Shown: piece after piece, positions 31,439-40,108 of the stretch | Position numbering within the stretch: position 1 is the first letter of the stretch | How the letters are laid out: the number at the start of each line of letters is the position of its first letter | Assembly (NCBI RefSeq): GCF_016860525.1 | Contig: NZ_BNEA01000001.1 | Span: 124,001-188,000, forward strand | DNA: 64,000 nt | Origin: Streptomyces rubradiris | GTDB lineage: Bacteria; Actinomycetota; Actinomycetes; Streptomycetales; Streptomycetaceae | Reading direction: 5' to 3' | Made by a program: the position numbers and the translations under genes | Notes under the pieces: model-generated | The model's input: only the letters and a program-made list of their open reading frames with translations | Database searches by the model: none | What the model was told of the DNA's origin: nothing

Positions 31439-32101
31439 TCAGACCAGGTGGGCGAAGACGACCAGGTTGTCGGTGTAGTCGCGCACCGTACGGTCGTAGT
31501 CCCCGGCGCAGGTGATGAGCCGGGCCTCGGGGCGGTCGGCGTCGGCGTACACCCGCTCGCTGGGGAAGTCGTCCTTGGCGAAGGTCTCGGTGCTGTCGAC
31601 GACGAACTCCGCCGTACGCCCGTCGGCCCGCTCCACGGAGAACCGGTCGCCGGCCTCCAGCCGGTCCAGGTTGGCGAACACGGCCGCCGACGTGACCGTG
31701 TCGACGTGCCCGGCGATGATCGCGGTGCCCCGCTCACCGGGCGCGACACCGTCGGCGTACCAGCCGACGAGGTTGGTGTCGCCCGCGGGCGGCGGCTCCA
31801 GCTGGCCCGAGGGGCCGAGGGCCAGGGTGGTGAACGGGGCGTCCACGGAGATCGCCGGGATGCGCAGCCGGGTCGGCGCGGACCGGGACAGCGGCTCGCC
31901 CGGCTGCCGGGGGCCGGCCGAGGCGGCGGCGCCGGCACCCGAGGTCCGGGGCGGTCCGGGCTCACCGGCCGGCTGGTGACCGCCGAACAGGCTGACGGCG
32001 AGGAGGACCGCCGCCACCCCCCACAGCGTCAGCCGTCCGCCGTGACCGGAGCGCCGGTCGTCCGCCGGCGCCGGGGGGGCCGCGGAAGGATCTGCTGCCA
32101 T
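31439..32101 (-). CDS. Class F sortase
   Basis: A 220-residue membrane-anchored transpeptidase that would attach surface proteins to the cell envelope. There is one N-terminal span (about 24-40), a Pro/Ala linker, then the sortase beta-barrel: RLRIPAISVDAPF, NLVGWYADG, the catalytic His in IAGHVDT and the catalytic Cys in LITCAGDYD. Class F members are typical of actinobacteria and their substrates are poorly known. The neighbouring upstream gene encodes a secreted protein with a tripartite anchor-like tail and is the obvious candidate partner. Confidence 0.9.
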   Translation of the reverse strand: MAADPSAAPPAPADDRRSGHGGRLTLWGVAAVLLAVSLFGGHQPAGEPGPPRTSGAGAAASAGPRQPGEPLSRSAPTRLRIPAISVDAPFTTLALGPSGQLEPPPAGDTNLVGWYADGVAPGERGTAIIAGHVDTVTSAAVFANLDRLEAGDRFSVERADGRTAEFVVDSTETFAKDDFPSERVYADADRPEARLITCAGDYDRTVRDYTDNLVVFAHLV

Positions 32102-32638
32102 CGGACACCACCTCACTCGGACACGGCAGCACGGGATCGGGACAGTGAGCACACCGGCGGAGACGGCGCGGTGGCGGTGCGGTCGGTACATCGGCGGAGC
32201 GCCGCCGCGGACGGAGACGGGCGATGGTGGCCCGGCGCGGCACGGGGCGCGGGCCGCCACCGACGGAGCCGGCCCGCGCAGAGGCGACGGTGGCCATCCC
32301 GGCCCCGTACGGGCAGCGCAAGCCACCAACGGGACACCACCGCACGCGGAGACGGGCGATGGCCGTCCGGCGCACGGGTCGGGCAGGACGGGCCGCCGGC
32401 ACGGCTCCGGCACACGCAGGCAGGCGGTGGCGACCCCCGCACGGCACGGGCCGGCCGGGACGCCGGCGCACCGGCGCACCGGCGCACGCAGGCGGGCGGT
32501 GGCGATGCGGCGCGCGGGCCGCCGACGGGACACCGCCGCGTGCGGCGACGGGGCAGCGGTGGTCCCGGTGCGGTGCGGAGGCGCGGGCCGCCGGCGCGGC
32601 GGCGGTGTCCGCGGCCCCTGGCGCACGGCGGCGGCCCG
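32102..32638. other. Gene-free repetitive GC-rich spacer
   Basis: This 537-bp gap between the sortase and its presumed substrate holds at least four imperfect copies of a unit resembling CGCACGCAGGCGGGCGGTGGC, spread over about 32205-32520. Long open frames on both strands are artefacts of base composition. No gene is supported. Confidence 0.55.
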
Positions 32639-33229
32639 TCAGGACGCCGGGCCGGTGGCCTTCTTGCGGCGCAGCGTGTACGCGCCGGTGGCGGCCACGG
32701 CCAGCGCGGCGAGACCGCCCGCGGTGACACCGGGCGTGGCGAGCCCGCCGCCACCGGTGTGCATGCCGCCGCGCGGCTTGTCGTGCTCCTCGTCCTCGCC
32801 CCACTCGCTCTTGCCGCTCCGGCCACCCTTGCCCTTGCCGCCGCCCTGTTCCTCCTTGCCGCCCTTCTCCTCGCCGTCGTCCTCCTCCTCGCCCTTGTCG
32901 CGGTAGCTCTCGGGGTCGAACTTGCTGTCCTCGCCCTCCGAGCCCCAGCCGCCGCTGCGCACCGCGGCGAGGGCTCCGCCACCCGTGTGCATTCCACCGC
33001 GCGGTCCGTCGTGTTCCCCTCCCCCGTCGCGCTTGTTGCCGTATTCGTTGTCGTCGTCGCTGTCGGATCCCTTGTCACGGCCGGAGTCGCTGTCGTGCTC
33101 CCTGCTGTACGAGGAGTCGTCACGACCGCTGTCGTGTTCGCCCGGTACGGCGAACGCGGCTCCGGGCGTCGCGCAGGCGAGGGCGGCCGTGGTGGCCGCC
33201 GTCGCCAGGAGCATGCGGGCAGAGCGCAT
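32639..33229 (-). CDS. Secreted charged surface protein with LPXTG-less anchor tail
   Basis: The 196 residues comprise a signal peptide (cleaved near AAFA, residue 27), a long low-complexity Asp/Glu/Lys/Gly region, and a C-terminal hydrophobic helix (about 165-185) followed by RRKK. The motif PRGGMHTGGG occurs twice, at 76-85 and at 152-161 directly before the helix, where a sortase recognition motif would sit. There is no LPXTG or LAXTG. The ATG at 33229 follows GGAAGGAC. The function of the charged region is unknown; flexible spacer or ion binding are possible. Confidence 0.85.
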   Translation of the reverse strand: MRSARMLLATAATTAALACATPGAAFAVPGEHDSGRDDSSYSREHDSDSGRDKGSDSDDDNEYGNKRDGGGEHDGPRGGMHTGGGALAAVRSGGWGSEGEDSKFDPESYRDKGEEEDDGEEKGGKEEQGGGKGKGGRSGKSEWGEDEEHDKPRGGMHTGGGGLATPGVTAGGLAALAVAATGAYTLRRKKATGPAS

Positions 33230-33536
33230 AGTGATGTCCTTCCGCCGTGACCGGGCAGCGGACACCTCATCAGCTGGATGGACCCGGTCCCGACATGAAC
33301 CACCGTCAGTGAGGCCCCCGGCGCACACCATCCGAGCCGCCCAGCCGGGTCACCATGCCACCCGTCTGCCTCAGCGCGCCCGCTTGGCGACCCCTCGTAC
33401 GGGTCAATCACCGGCGCGTCCGCCGCGTCCGGACCGGCGGGCCGGCTCCCGATGACGCCGGCCCCCTTGTTATGACCGGCGTCATAACGCACGCTGGTGC
33501 CGACAGCACGGCAGGACAACGCGACGGGAGGCAGCG
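33230..33536. promoter_or_regulatory. Divergent intergenic region with palindrome at 33469-33488
   Basis: A 307-bp gap between the surface protein and the SCO6745-like gene. GTTATGAC-cggc-GTCATAAC (33469-33488) is a perfect 8-bp inverted repeat about 48 bp before the SCO6745-like start, a likely operator of a MarR- or TetR-type regulator. No gene is seen in the gap. Confidence 0.65.
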
Positions 33537-34415
33537 GTGGCGGACGGAAGGGCGCGCGCCCTGTGGGAGCGGTACGAGCCGGTGCACGACCTCGTGTACT
33601 TCGCGCCGGAGGCGCACCGGGCGGCGGACGCCCTCGGGCTGCGCGGGCCCTGGATGGGGTACTTCGCACTGCGCGCCGCCCCGCTCGGCGCGGTGTCCCC
33701 GTCGGTGGTGACGAGCTGCTTCTACGTCTACCACCCCTCGCGGGTGGGCCGGGCGCTGCCCGACGCCTGGGCGTACGCGGCTCCCGAGGAGGTGCTGGCG
33801 GCCCGCCTGGAGGCGATGGACGCGGCGATGTCCCATCTGTTCGGGAAGGACGTCGTCGGCGCCGCCGCCTTCACGGAGGCCGCGGACCTCGCGTGGGAGG
33901 CCGCCGCCGCGGCGGACACCACGGGCAGGGTGCTGGGCGCCGCCAACCAGGCGCTCGACCGGCCTGAGCGGCCCGCCGCCCGGCTGTGGCAGGCCCTGAC
34001 GACCCTGCGCGAGCACCGGGGCGACTCCCACGTGGCGGTGCTGGTCGGCCTGGGGCTGGGGCCGGTGGAGGCCATGGTGCTCAAGGCGGCGGCCGGGGAG
34101 TCCGACGGGGACCTCCTGCGCGAGATGCGGAACTGGCCGCGGGAGGAGTGGGCGGCGGCCGAGGCACGGCTGCGCGCGGACGGCCGGCTCGCGGCGGACG
34201 GCTCGCTCACCCCGTCGGGCGCGGCCCTGCGCGCGGAGACCGAGGCGCTGACCGACGCGGCGGCCGAGCGGCCGTGGACCGTGCTGGGTGCCGAGCGGAC
34301 CGAGCGGCTGGCCGCGCTGCTGGAGCCGATGGCCGGCGCGGTGGCGGAGTCGGGGCTGTTGCCGGCCGGGAATCCGATGGGGGTGACCCGGGGGACGCAC
34401 CCCCTCGGGCGCTGA
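33537..34415 (+). CDS. SCO6745-family protein
   Basis: A 292-residue protein of a family common in actinobacteria and sometimes named SalK. The opening LWERYEPVHDLVYFAPEA, then RGPWMGYFALRAAPLGAVSP and the C-terminal winged-helix-like half (MRNWPREEWAAAEARLRADG) are typical. Its biochemical role is not established. GTG 33537 has a GGGAGG site five bases upstream. A perfect palindrome precedes the gene. Confidence 0.85.
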   Translation: MADGRARALWERYEPVHDLVYFAPEAHRAADALGLRGPWMGYFALRAAPLGAVSPSVVTSCFYVYHPSRVGRALPDAWAYAAPEEVLAARLEAMDAAMSHLFGKDVVGAAAFTEAADLAWEAAAAADTTGRVLGAANQALDRPERPAARLWQALTTLREHRGDSHVAVLVGLGLGPVEAMVLKAAAGESDGDLLREMRNWPREEWAAAEARLRADGRLAADGSLTPSGAALRAETEALTDAAAERPWTVLGAERTERLAALLEPMAGAVAESGLLPAGNPMGVTRGTHPLGR

Positions 34416-34542
34416 GGTCCGGCGGTCGCCGACGGCGGCTGGATTCCCTCGCCGGTGACCTCATCCGTTTGTCCGACATCAGTCGTATCAATCGTTGAAC
34501 TGCCTGACTGGGCATCCTTGTTGGGGGCCTTACCCTGGGGCC

Positions 34543-35409
34543 GTGGTCAACCGTGAAGAGGATCCAGGACAGGTGGCGTCCCGGCTCACCGGGCGCACCG
34601 CCACCGGGACCCGGCCGTCGTCCGGCTCGCCCGCCGAGGTGCTGCTGGACGACGGGACACCGGTGATGGTCAAGCGGGGCGACAGCCCCGGGGCGGTCCG
34701 CGCCGAGGTGGCGGGGCTGCGCTGGCTGGGTGCCGCGGGCGCGGTCCGGGTGCCGGCGGTGCTGGGGTACGACGAGCACTGGATGGTGACCGAGCGGGTG
34801 CCGACCGGCTCCCCCGGCCCCGACGCGGCGCTGCGTTTCGGCCGGGCCCTCGCCGCCCTGCACAAGGCGGGCGCGCCGCACTTCGGGGCGGCGCCGCCCG
34901 ACGGGCCCGAGGACGCCCGCATCGGCCTGGCCCCCATGCGCAACGCGCCGGGCACCGACTGGCCGTCCTGGTACGCCGAGCACCGCGTGCTGCCCTATGT
35001 GCGCGGCGCGGTCGACCGCGGCACGCTCCGCCCGGCCGAGGCAGGCGTGTTCGAGCGGGTCTGCGCGCGGCTGCCGGAGGTGGCGGGTCCGGCCGAGCCG
35101 CCCGCCCGGCTGCACGGCGACCTGTGGAACGGCAATGTGCTGTGGGGCGCCGACGGCGAGGTCCGGCTCATCGACCCGGCCGCGCACGGCGGACACCGGG
35201 AGACGGACCTGGCGATGCTCCACTTGTTCGGCTGCCCGCACCTGGACCGGGTGCTGGCCGGCTACCAGGAGGCGGCCCCGCCGGCCCCCGGCTGGCGGGA
35301 CCGGGTACGTGTGCACCAGTTGTTCCCGTTGCTGGTGCACGCGGTGCTGTTCGGGCGCGGGTACGCCGAACAGGCCCTGACGGCGGCGCGGGAGACACTC
35401 GCGCAGTAG
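34543..35409 (+). CDS. Fructosamine-kinase / APH-fold kinase
   Basis: A 288-residue small-molecule kinase. The catalytic loop HGDLWNGNVLWG and metal-binding LIDPAAHGGHRETDLAM are diagnostic of the fructosamine kinase family, which removes sugar adducts by phosphorylating ketoamines. The N-terminal lobe contains VMVKRG as the ATP-binding lysine. GTG 34543 is the likely start. There is no Shine-Dalgarno site and a TACCCT hexamer lies just upstream, so it may be leaderless. A strong hairpin follows. Confidence 0.88.
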   Translation: MVNREEDPGQVASRLTGRTATGTRPSSGSPAEVLLDDGTPVMVKRGDSPGAVRAEVAGLRWLGAAGAVRVPAVLGYDEHWMVTERVPTGSPGPDAALRFGRALAALHKAGAPHFGAAPPDGPEDARIGLAPMRNAPGTDWPSWYAEHRVLPYVRGAVDRGTLRPAEAGVFERVCARLPEVAGPAEPPARLHGDLWNGNVLWGADGEVRLIDPAAHGGHRETDLAMLHLFGCPHLDRVLAGYQEAAPPAPGWRDRVRVHQLFPLLVHAVLFGRGYAEQALTAARETLAQ

Positions 35410-35436: not shown

Positions 35437-35506
35437 ACGGAGAGTGAGGCAACCAATCACTCATTCGCTTCGTATAAGGACGTGAAAGCCTAATCAGGGA
35501 GAGACC

Positions 35507-35698
35507 ATGCAACCGTTCACGCTCAACTACGCGCGCCCCGCTGTGCAGTTGGACGTCACCACGCCGTATGCGTACGACTCCGGACTGCAACTGAACGTCC
35601 TCCCGGACGGGCGGATCGCCGCGACCGACCACGCTACCCTGCGAGCACTGGGGACCACGACCTCGACCGCCGGTTCCAAGACACACTTCGACGACTGA
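35507..35698 (+). CDS. Graspetide (ATP-grasp RiPP) precursor peptide
   Basis: A 63-residue peptide directly before an ATP-grasp gene. The leader contains YAYDSGLQLN and VLPDGRIAA, matching the YxYD...Q...V..DGR pattern I recall for ATP-grasp-modified RiPP precursors (TIGR04186 type). The probable core is the tail T50 to D63: Thr/Ser residues (TTTSTAGSKT) followed by HFDD. In graspetides the ATP-grasp enzyme joins Thr/Ser hydroxyls or Lys to Asp/Glu side chains, and the tail offers T50, T51, T52, S53, T54, S57, T59 and K58 against D62 and D63. ATG 35507 follows GGGAGAG; TATAAG at about 35473 may be the -10 element. Confidence 0.85.
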   Translation: MQPFTLNYARPAVQLDVTTPYAYDSGLQLNVLPDGRIAATDHATLRALGTTTSTAGSKTHFDD

Positions 35699-35715
35699 GC
35701 CACGGATCTCCACAG

Positions 35716-36699
35716 ATGACCGTACTCATCCTGACCAGTGAGGAAGACGTGACGGCGGACATGGTGGTCCTCCGGCTGGGCGAGGCCGGCGTGCCCGTCG
35801 TCCGGCTCGACCCCGCCGATCTGACCAACGGGGTGGCGCTGTCGGGCGAGTACGTACGGGGCGCTTGCCGGGGGCATCTGTCCGTCGGCGGGCGCCTGGT
35901 GAGCATGGACGGTCTGCGCTCCGTCTGGGTGCGCAGACCGGGCACCCCGGCCGCCCGTGCCGCACAGCCCTCCGCCTGGCTGACGGAGGAGTCGTCGCAA
36001 GCGCTGTACGGCATGCTGCGGTGCGGTGACGCCCGCTGGATGAACCATCCGGACGCCGCCCGCCGCGCCCGGCACAAGCCCTGGCAGCTGGGCCTGGCCC
36101 AGCGCAGCGGCCTCGCGGTGCCGGCCACCCTCATCACGACGTTCCCGCAGGCGGCGCGGGAGTTCGCGGAACGCTTCCCGGACCTGGTGGTCAAACCGGT
36201 CTCCGGGGCGCATCCGCAGGAGCCGCCCCGGTCCGTGCCGACCAGCCGGGTCGCGCCGGACACCGACTTCACCGCGGTGGCCTACGGACCGACCCTGCTG
36301 CAACGGCGGATCGCCAAACGGGCCGACATCCGGCTCACCGTCGTCGGCGACACGCTGCTGGCCGCCCGTAAACCCGCCGACCCGGACGCCCACCCGGACG
36401 ACGTGGACGTCCGTTTCGCCCCGTCGGTCGCTCCCTGGCTGCCCGCGGACGTGCCCGCGCGCGTCACCGAGGGCGTGCTGCGGTACATGGCGGGCGCGGA
36501 ACTGGCGTACGGCGCCTTCGACTTCGCGGAGGACGCGGACGGCGTCTGGTGGTTCCTGGAGTGCAACCAGTCCGGCCAGTTCGGGTTCGTGGAGATGGAC
36601 ACCGGGCAGCCGATCGCCGCCACCATCGCCAAGTGGCTCGCGGGGCACGTACCCACGGGCGGCGGGTGTGGGCGGGGCGAGCGCGGCGCACCATCCTGA
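35716..36699 (+). CDS. ATP-grasp peptide maturase
   Basis: A 327-residue RimK-like ATP-grasp ligase 17 bp after the precursor gene. The N-terminal half begins MTVLILTSEEDVTADMVV; the central ATP-binding strand is LVVKPVSGA; the metal-binding motif is WWFLECNQSGQFGFVEMDTG, followed by PIAATIAKWL. This is the pattern of the SAV_5884-type maturases (TIGR04187). It would activate acidic side chains of the precursor with ATP and form ester or amide cross-links. No O-methyltransferase, the usual third gene, follows. Confidence 0.9.
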   Translation: MTVLILTSEEDVTADMVVLRLGEAGVPVVRLDPADLTNGVALSGEYVRGACRGHLSVGGRLVSMDGLRSVWVRRPGTPAARAAQPSAWLTEESSQALYGMLRCGDARWMNHPDAARRARHKPWQLGLAQRSGLAVPATLITTFPQAAREFAERFPDLVVKPVSGAHPQEPPRSVPTSRVAPDTDFTAVAYGPTLLQRRIAKRADIRLTVVGDTLLAARKPADPDAHPDDVDVRFAPSVAPWLPADVPARVTEGVLRYMAGAELAYGAFDFAEDADGVWWFLECNQSGQFGFVEMDTGQPIAATIAKWLAGHVPTGGGCGRGERGAPS

Positions 36700-37826: not shown

Positions 37827-38729
37827 TCACCGGGTACCGGGCGTGGTCCAGTAGTTGACGCGTTCGTGTACGACGGGGTAGCCGGCCGTGGTGAAGTGCG
37901 CGGCCATCGGGAGGTTGCCCTGGTCGGTGGCCGCGGCGATGAACCGCGCGCCCTGTCCGACCAGGAAGTGGGTGCAGTCGGCGAGCAGGTCGTAGGCGTA
38001 GCCGTGGCCGCGTTGTTCCGGCACCACTCCGACGAAGCCGACGCAGGGTCCCGAGGGGTTGCGGGCCGGGATGTGGATGCCGACCGGCTCGCCCGCCGGG
38101 GTGCGGGCGATCCGCCACCAGTCGCGGGGGGAGGGGAACCAGTGGAAGATGTCCAGATCCTCCTGGGCCGCCCGGTCCACGCCGTGCTGTTCGGCGGCCC
38201 GGCGGGCGTGGGCGTCGAGGGTGCCGCGGTGGATGCGGCGCAGCAGGTCGTAGAAGACGGTGTCGTCCGGTTCGGCGGTGAACACGAGCCGTCCGGGCCG
38301 CTCGGGCAGACCCCGGTCGGGGGTCCAGCGGTAGACGAAGCGTTCCACCAAGGGGGTGTAGCCGGCCCGGCGCGCGGCGGCGGCGCGGGTGTCGGCCGCC
38401 GCCCGCAGGCACGGGTCGTCCCGCCAGCCGGGAGGCAGGTCGAGTTCGAGCTCGGGGGTCCGCCAGGGCGCCGTCCGCAGCAGTGCGGCGCCCGCCTCCT
38501 GCTCGCCCTCGGCGACGTCGAACCAGTTGATCACCAGGGGCTCGGGGTCCTCCGGCCGGGCCCACCAGGCGGCGCGTGCCACGGTGCGGCCGTCGCGCAG
38601 GGCGACGCGCTGCCAGTCGGGGCGGTAGCGGGTACGGCGGTGCCGGTCGCCCAGGGCGAGCGGGTCGGGCATGGTGTGGAACAGGTGCGCGCTGCTGTCG
38701 TCGAGCGCGCGGATGACCAGACCGGTCAT
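37827..38729 (-). CDS. GNAT-family N-acetyltransferase
   Basis: A 300-residue protein with a C-terminal GNAT acetyl-CoA site (CVGFVGVVPEQRGHGYAYDL, where EQRGHG is the pyrophosphate-binding loop) and an N-terminal degenerate GNAT half, i.e. a tandem arrangement. The ATG at 38729 has a GGAGGAA site. A 19-residue ORF with an ideal ribosome binding site lies 61 bp upstream. The acceptor substrate is unknown. Confidence 0.85.
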   Translation of the reverse strand: MTGLVIRALDDSSAHLFHTMPDPLALGDRHRRTRYRPDWQRVALRDGRTVARAAWWARPEDPEPLVINWFDVAEGEQEAGAALLRTAPWRTPELELDLPPGWRDDPCLRAAADTRAAAARRAGYTPLVERFVYRWTPDRGLPERPGRLVFTAEPDDTVFYDLLRRIHRGTLDAHARRAAEQHGVDRAAQEDLDIFHWFPSPRDWWRIARTPAGEPVGIHIPARNPSGPCVGFVGVVPEQRGHGYAYDLLADCTHFLVGQGARFIAAATDQGNLPMAAHFTTAGYPVVHERVNYWTTPGTR

Positions 38730-38790
38730 GGATTCCTCCGGGATGCGTGGGATGGGCGACGCTCCCGGTCGGATCATCAGATCCTGGAAA

Positions 38791-38850
38791 TCAGACGTGA
38801 CACGCCCGGGGCACGGGGAGGGGGGAGCGCCGACTGCTGCTGTCCTGCAT
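38791..38850 (-). CDS. Small ORF (19 residues) upstream of the acetyltransferase
   Basis: ATG 38848-38850 is preceded by AAGGAGG at optimal spacing and encodes MQDSSSRRSPLPVPRACHV. A ribosome binding site this strong for 19 codons suggests it is translated. It ends 61 bp before the GNAT gene on the same strand. It could be a regulatory leader peptide or a free small protein. No homologue is known to me. Confidence 0.5.
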   Translation of the reverse strand: MQDSSSRRSPLPVPRACHV

Positions 38851-38974
38851 GACACTCGCCTCCTTCTTCCGTCCGGCTCGGGCGTGGCGGGCCCAGGCTA
38901 GACGGGCGGCCGGGCGGTCGTCCACCGGTTTTCCGCGCGGGCGCCCGAAGCCGGCGGCGGCGTAGCTTGGGAAT

Positions 38975-40108
38975 GTGGGATCGGTGCGCGGCCGGTGGTC
39001 GCGCGGGAACCGGGAGGAGCGCGGCTGGCTGCGGGGCGCGCCACCGCCGTGGTGGGTCCGCGTGCTGCCCGTCCTGCTGCTCGCCGCCGTCGGCTCGGCC
39101 ACGCTGATCACACCCCACGCACGCGACCTCGGCTTCCTGCTGGGGGCGATCCCGCCGCTGGCGGTCCTGTCGTACGGCCCGCTGACCACCGGGGTGCTCG
39201 GCGTGGGCGTGGTCGCGGTGCTCACCGTGCCGGTCACGCATCTGGACCGCCCCGGCGACACCGACCTGCTGACGGTCGTGTTCGTGGCCGCGCTGAGCGT
39301 GTTCGTCTCCTATGTGCGCAGCCGCCGGGACGCCCAGCTGGACACCGAGCGGGCGATCGGCGAGGCGGTGCAGCGGGCCGTGCTGCCGCCGCTGCCGGAC
39401 CGGGTCGGGCGGGTCGGGTGCGCGGCGCACTACCGGGCGGCGCAGGACGGGACGCTGGTGGGCGGGGACTTCTTCGACGTGCGCGCGGGGCCGCACGGGG
39501 TACGGGCGGTGCTGGGCGACGTACAGGGGCACGGGCTGTCGGCGGTGGCCACGGTGGTGTCGCTGCTGGGGGCGTTCCGGGAGGCCGCGCTGGACCAGCC
39601 GGACCTGGGGTCGGTGGCGGCGCGGCTGGACCGGCGGCTGGCGGTGGACTCGGCGGACGCGGGGCGCCCGGAGCTGTTCGCGACGGCCCTGCTGCTGGAG
39701 TTCACCGACGGCACGGCCGTACGCGTGATCGCCTGCGGGCATCCGGCGCCCGTGCTGGTGCGCCCCGGAGCGGCCCGGGAGGTGGGTGTCGTGCCCGCGC
39801 CGCCGCTGGGCATCGGGCTGGCCGGCGTCGGCCCGCCGAAGGAGGTCACCGTGCCGCTCCGTCCGGGTGACCTGCTGTTCCTGGCCTCCGACGGCGTGTG
39901 GGAGGCCCGGGACGCCGCCGGTGCCTTCTACCCGCTGCCCGAGCGGCTGACCGCCCTGGCCGGCACCCCCTCCGCCGAGCTGCCCGGCGCGGTGTGGGCG
40001 GACCTGGTACGACGCCGCTACCGCGTCCGCGACGACGCCACCATGCTGGTGCTGACGCCGGGGGCCGGAGCGGCGCGGGGGGCCGGTGAGGGGCCGAACT
40101 CGGCCTGA
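38975..40108 (+). CDS. Membrane-anchored SpoIIE-type PP2C phosphatase
   Basis: A 377-residue protein with three or four N-terminal membrane spans (about residues 27-47, 53-70, 73-92 and 100-112) and a cytoplasmic PP2C domain: VQRAVLPPLPDRVG, VGGDFFDVR, LGDVQGHGLSAVATV and LFLASDGVWEARD supply the metal ligands. Such proteins dephosphorylate anti-anti-sigma factors. GTG 38975 follows GCGTAGCTTGGGAAT, which suggests a leaderless transcript. An anti-sigma-type ATPase is encoded at 62083, far away; no partner lies adjacent. Confidence 0.9.
   Translation: MGSVRGRWSRGNREERGWLRGAPPPWWVRVLPVLLLAAVGSATLITPHARDLGFLLGAIPPLAVLSYGPLTTGVLGVGVVAVLTVPVTHLDRPGDTDLLTVVFVAALSVFVSYVRSRRDAQLDTERAIGEAVQRAVLPPLPDRVGRVGCAAHYRAAQDGTLVGGDFFDVRAGPHGVRAVLGDVQGHGLSAVATVVSLLGAFREAALDQPDLGSVAARLDRRLAVDSADAGRPELFATALLLEFTDGTAVRVIACGHPAPVLVRPGAAREVGVVPAPPLGIGLAGVGPPKEVTVPLRPGDLLFLASDGVWEARDAAGAFYPLPERLTALAGTPSAELPGAVWADLVRRRYRVRDDATMLVLTPGAGAARGAGEGPNSA

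Follow-up and report, generated by a model that had tools for sequence, protein, structure and literature searches.

Two-gene graspetide locus of Streptomyces rubradiris with a probable link to prunipeptin

A precursor gene and a graspetide synthetase gene

The window analysed here is a stretch of 64,000 nucleotides of Streptomyces rubradiris, in which a short precursor gene is followed on the same strand by the gene of an ATP-grasp enzyme. Read from the open reading frame and its letters, the precursor gene occupies 35507-35698 (+), starts with ATG, stops at 35696-35698 and encodes 63 residues (MQPFTLNYARPAVQLDVTTPYAYDSGLQLNVLPDGRIAATDHATLRALGTTTSTAGSKTHFDD) with GTTTSTAGSKTHFDD at the C-terminus. 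A putative ribosome-binding site, the purine-rich AGGGAGA at 35496..35502 (+), precedes the start codon, which lies 65 bases 3' of position 35442, where an earlier, sequence-only reading had begun the locus. That reading had placed a 63-residue precursor 17 bp ahead of an ATP-grasp maturase, and the open reading frames at 35507-35698 and 35716-36699 bear this out, with a 17-bp gap (35699..35715, +) between precursor stop and maturase start.

The precursor matched the Pfam family PF14404 (Strep_pep) at 127.2 bits (cut-off 25, E 2.6e-37), with residues 1-63 on positions 1-63 of 63, and the NCBIfam model TIGR04186 over its full length at 47 bits against a cut-off of 25. Pfam describes PF14404 as 'Ribosomally synthesized peptide in Streptomyces species', and excerpts of PMC8939145 date the family back to a survey of ATP-grasp enzymes from 2009, so that precursors of this kind have been on record from that year. 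Residues 1-49 (MQPFTLNYARPA...ALG; 35507..35653, +) form the predicted leader, which is covered by both full-length matches and contains a PFxLNYARP motif near-invariant among homologues. By analogy this motif is probably the maturase-binding segment; leader motifs of the form 'Phhx(1,2)h' are proposed to activate the maturase in the available part of PMC8939145. The putative core, TTTSTAGSKTHFDD (residues 50-63; 35654..35695, +), takes its N-terminal boundary at residue 50, a putative cleavage position, from the sequence-only reading. It holds D62 and D63 as acceptors, which are its only acids and stand at the C-terminus as had been claimed, and T50-T52, S53, T54, S57, K58 and T59 as candidate donors, K58 being the sole lysine.

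The second gene (35716..36699, +) starts with ATG and encodes a graspetide synthetase (ATP-grasp ribosomal peptide maturase) of 327 residues. It scored 381.2 bits with TIGR04187 (ATP-grasp ribosomal peptide maturase; cut-off 350), which identifies it as the dedicated maturase of the graspetide class, and 30 bits with the pre-ATP-grasp domain PF21068 (cut-off 27). The best match among solved structures was chain A of 9bou (520 bits, 77% identity across 309 residues), followed by 5ig8, AMdnB (7m4s), CdnC (7mgv), 5ig9 and 7drm, all at 97.5 bits or less. The other marks of the class were also found, namely an adjacent precursor, a conserved leader and a core with donor (S/T/K) and acceptor (D/E) residues. 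Hence the matches to TIGR04187, PF14404/TIGR04186 and 9bou uphold the earlier view that this is a graspetide locus whose ATP-grasp maturase is dedicated to it.

Eight neighbouring genes were annotated. Upstream lie the genes for a sortase-domain protein (31439-32626, -), a protein of 230 residues with no Pfam match (32639-33331, -), a member of the HTH_67/SCO6745 family (33537-34415) and, directly before the precursor gene, a fructosamine-kinase/APH-like protein (34495-35409); downstream follow those for an oxidoreductase of the Gfo/Idh/MocA type (scanned from 36734), a GNAT protein (37827-38855, -), a phosphatase of the SpoIIE type (38975-40108) and a P450 (scanned from 40197). No methyltransferase, maturation protease or transporter occurs among these eight, in agreement with the sequence-only reading, and neither do DUF397/DUF5753 genes, which may go with graspetide groups 11 and 13 according to excerpts of PMC13097080. 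The further claim that the want of tailoring genes sets the locus apart from characterised loci was weakly founded, as three predicted groups (27, 28 and 35) consist of synthetase and precursor only (excerpts of PMC13097080). The 230-residue protein carries the motif RGGMHTGGGxLA twice and a hydrophobic end with RRKK; it resembles a sortase substrate, and the sortase-domain gene follows it.

Related loci and conservation of the core

Related loci were collected from genome contigs as the best 80 of 456 relatives, all 80 of them from Streptomyces. The precursor lay directly upstream of the maturase in every one of these best 80 of 456 loci, its match starting 193-210 bases ahead of the maturase match, and all 80 precursors ended in HFDD. 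A fructosamine-kinase-like gene was found in at least 49 and a Gfo/Idh oxidoreductase in at least 60 of the same 80, these counts being lower bounds because several loci end at contig ends. No single window neighbour, of the eight tested, occurs in all 80 of these best 80 of 456 loci. Precursor and maturase are adjacent throughout and the neighbours are not universal; therefore the two genes are the unit, and the neighbours were dropped as parts of the locus. They are mainly common to closer relatives, and the 80 nearest loci say little on distant ones. Excerpts of PMC13097080 mention phosphotransferases next to two other graspetide groups of actinomycetes, 29 and 37.

Pairwise comparison of the 80 loci (best of 456) gave pS 0.36 and pN 0.110 in the leader, and pS 0.39 and pN 0.005 in the core. 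The core showed some 20-fold fewer amino-acid differences than the leader, while synonymous differences were equally frequent in both, indicating that selection holds the core and that its uniformity is not the recent spread of one DNA copy. The sequence-only reading had named homologues with an ATP-grasp enzyme directed at another substrate as a finding that would overturn it; with the pair adjacent in 80/80 loci (best 80 of 456), none was found to support such a substrate. The corresponding explanation, that the enzyme serves another substrate and the small open reading frame is incidental, drew no support from the loci compared here, and the constant adjacency together with the gap between pN and pS in the core makes it exceedingly improbable. 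A chance open reading frame was ruled out by the PF14404/TIGR04186 matches and the codon constraint.

At the protein level, the last 15 residues were GTTTSTAGSKTHFDD in 112 of 119 full-length close homologues (from the best 120 of 263, one of 81 residues being omitted). A wider set of 279 distinct homologues was pooled from three queries (best 120 of 263, best 120 of 144, and all 47), so that the sizes of groups within it are not frequencies. T51, S53, A55, G56, F61, D62 and D63 were invariant in all 279, and S57, T59 and H60 showed one departure each; T at position 50 was replaced by A, S or M, and T at position 52 by A, V or C. The survey of core variation that had been proposed earlier was thus carried out, and the core hardly varies except at positions 50, 52, 54 and 58.

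Of 61 whole genomes, 20 carried PF14404; all 20 are among the 37 genomes of the same genus (which include the window's own), and the 24 others had none. This distribution agrees with the available text of PMC11888242, where the 'prunipeptin BGC family' numbers 3,589 members, 99.53% of them Streptomyces. With its gene family present in 20/37 sampled genomes of the genus, the window locus is a further copy that matters little by itself. A question it raises is why the core of a secondary metabolite stays nearly unchanged across a genus.

Predicted bonds and lysine variation

For maturation we propose that the PFxLNY segment of the leader would dock on the ATP-grasp enzyme, which would then use ATP to phosphorylate D62 and D63 at their side-chain carboxylates, giving acyl phosphates; acyl-phosphate activation followed by joining to donor side chains is the general graspetide mechanism (excerpts of PMC13097080). 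The two aspartates would be joined to core donors, most likely K58 through an amide and one of T51, S53 and T54 through an ester, with loss of two waters. The leader would be removed by a protease encoded elsewhere; according to the available part of PMC8939145, ATP-grasp loci do not typically contain the gene for the double-glycine peptidase, and which enzyme cleaves graspetides is not known. With two invariant acids, the core could form at most two rings. The ring pattern is not obvious from sequence alone, as had been noted before, and we infer both bond pattern and processing. For the K58 form, the combination of a K58 amide with an ester from T51, S53 or T54 is favoured because it agrees with the structure of prunipeptin, which, as reportedly found by Unno and Kodani in 2021, is closed by an ester bond and an isopeptide bond.

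The same family of graspetide could instead be closed through hydroxyl donors only, for example by T54-D62 and S53-D63 bonds in a hairpin, with K58 free and perhaps serving as the contact residue of a protease inhibitor. An inhibitory role would suit the characterised graspetides, which up to 2022 were all protease inhibitors according to excerpts of PMC8939145. In the pooled 279 homologues, moreover, T51 and S53 never change, position 54 holds T (257) or K (22), and position 58 varies (K 148, Q 77, A 53, R 1). Nevertheless, K58 is the only lysine of the window core and is retained in 80/80 closer loci (best 80 of 456), and an isopeptide bond is reportedly part of prunipeptin, so that closure by hydroxyls only is rather unlikely for the window peptide.

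The amide at K58 thus remains our preferred reading for the window peptide, and the wider family limits how far it extends. K58 is absent from 131/279 homologues; an essential role of this residue therefore does not hold family-wide, and those homologues must use hydroxyl donors or K54. Lysine never stood at both 54 and 58 (0/279), and the last 14 residues of 109/279 were free of it. Judging by the K54 variants, the residue at position 54 may act as a donor. The homologues fall into a main group with K58 and a sister group in which Q or A often stands at 58, many of its precursors lacking a core lysine and others combining K54 with A/Q58; the window locus has the common K58 form. Four of the 61 genomes (G001, G007, G022 and G026) carry one main-group and one sister-group locus. 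In seven sister loci (L010, L018-L022 and L024) Q or A was seen at 58, and L010 has its lysine at 54 instead; the precursors of L025 and L026, weak matches inside long open reading frames, were excluded.

A maturase tree of 54 sequences was examined, comprising 53 of 119 extracted maturases and one outgroup; the window maturase was omitted and L027 (96% identical) stands near its place, and the placement of L132 was ignored, as its branch length of 10 probably reflects a wrong-frame cut. The seven Q/A58 loci, including the one with K54, fell into a well-supported group of nine (98/100), and the other two members, L017 and L023, have K58. Position 58 has therefore changed several times, and K58 was not simply lost once. 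One may tentatively regard the family as a natural donor-switch series in which, on an otherwise identical core, the synthetases would close an amide at 58, an amide at 54 or nothing but esters, and the near-invariance of the core would then speak for a conserved physiological target and against a diversifying weapon; we hold this reading possible and somewhat doubtful. The lysine series of the sister group was not met in the open-licence graspetide papers looked through, with searches not aimed at lysine variation, and might be a side result of specialist interest. It raises the question of how related synthetases manage with the lysine donor lost or placed four positions away.

Comparison with prunipeptin and other graspetide systems

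Loci of the graspimiditide type (TIGR04186 + TIGR04187 + TIGR04188) share the precursor and maturase models of the window locus and differ from it in an adjacent methyltransferase and an unrelated precursor C-terminus. One such locus lies in the same genome outside the window (contig C15, 5707095-5709447; L115, 5096-7448), with a TIGR04186 precursor, a TIGR04187 maturase and a TIGR04188 methyltransferase in a row. Its presence gives some footing to the idea that the window peptide is first closed into rings and then methylated and converted to an aspartimide by a methyltransferase encoded elsewhere in the genome. That methyltransferase, however, has a precursor of its own beside it with an unrelated C-terminus. 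In graspimiditides (group 13) the isoaspartyl-type methyltransferase is 'almost always' adjacent (excerpts of PMC13097080), and no such gene stands among the eight annotated window neighbours. Accordingly, the window locus was rejected as a group 13 locus, and modification by the distant enzyme is very improbable.

The microviridin-type synthetases AMdnB (7m4s), CdnC (7mgv), 5ig8 and 5ig9 are likewise ATP-grasp peptide macrocyclases, although 5ig8 and 5ig9 are annotated merely as 'ATP grasp ligase', and they match the window maturase with E values of 8e-27 to 4e-18. The window maturase nevertheless scored far under the curated cut-offs of the MvdC and MvdD models (125.7 of 425 and 106.5 of 475 bits), and the precursors of microviridin-type systems differ from the window precursor. 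The closest structure, PDB 9BOU, is a 'MvdD-like pre-ATP grasp domain-containing protein' from another species than the window. We take it as possibly PruB of S. coelicolor, an enzyme that Rubin et al. reportedly described with a crystal structure in 2024; a search of the open-licence literature found no paper on 9BOU itself. A genomic maturase 99% identical to 9bou (G271) adjoins a precursor whose core is identical to that of the window, and nine further maturases, 86-98% identical to 9bou, also stand beside the identical core.

The reference list in the available part of PMC13097080 contains the title 'Novel Bicyclic Peptide Prunipeptin', from Streptomyces prunicolor. The genome of S. prunicolor NBRC 13075 holds three TIGR04187 loci, and a TIGR04185 search gave the same three, a count of what these two models detect beside which a synthetase outside both could exist. 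One of them (L100) encodes a precursor (MQPFALNYARPAAQLELSAPYTYDSGLQLNVLADGRVAAHDLALLRELGTTTSTAGSKTHFDD) that closes with the same GTTTSTAGSKTHFDD and so has a core identical to TTTSTAGSKTHFDD of the window. The other two have unrelated precursor C-termini, and next to each maturase lies a TIGR04188-type methyltransferase (cut-off 380), which scored 487.5 bits in L112 and 231.5 bits in L113, the latter for a 200-residue piece only; L100 is the only one of the three without an adjacent methyltransferase. The prunipeptin cluster is said, after Unno and Kodani in 2021, to consist of two genes, pruA and pruB, which again takes away from the supposed contrast between the window locus and characterised loci. 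By elimination among the three loci, together with this reported two-gene cluster, we infer that L100 is the prunipeptin locus of S. prunicolor, the strain with the identical core being probably the source of the described compound.

An open-licence literature search found no published report giving the window core or its product. The available text of PMC13127372 mentions prunipeptin only where antiSMASH had given that label to clusters of other types, and the excerpts of PMC9576775, in which eleven graspetide clusters were expressed, do not name the window core. The suggestion in the sequence-only reading that the product is probably undescribed was rejected, given the identical core in S. 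prunicolor NBRC 13075 and the large prunipeptin family in the excerpts of PMC11888242.

L100 and the window locus resemble each other in the genes that form the unit and differ in their surroundings. Both have a 63-residue precursor, the same gene order and an identical 14-residue core; the precursors are 79% identical, with every difference in the leader, and the maturases 81% identical. None of the eight window neighbours is at home beside L100, and only a 34% SpoIIE match lies 3.7 kb off. The window locus belongs, as an ordinary member, to a two-gene graspetide family (PF14404/TIGR04186 + TIGR04187) that is already known and widespread in Streptomyces, and, judged by its sequence, its product is in all likelihood prunipeptin or a peptide identical to it in the modified core.
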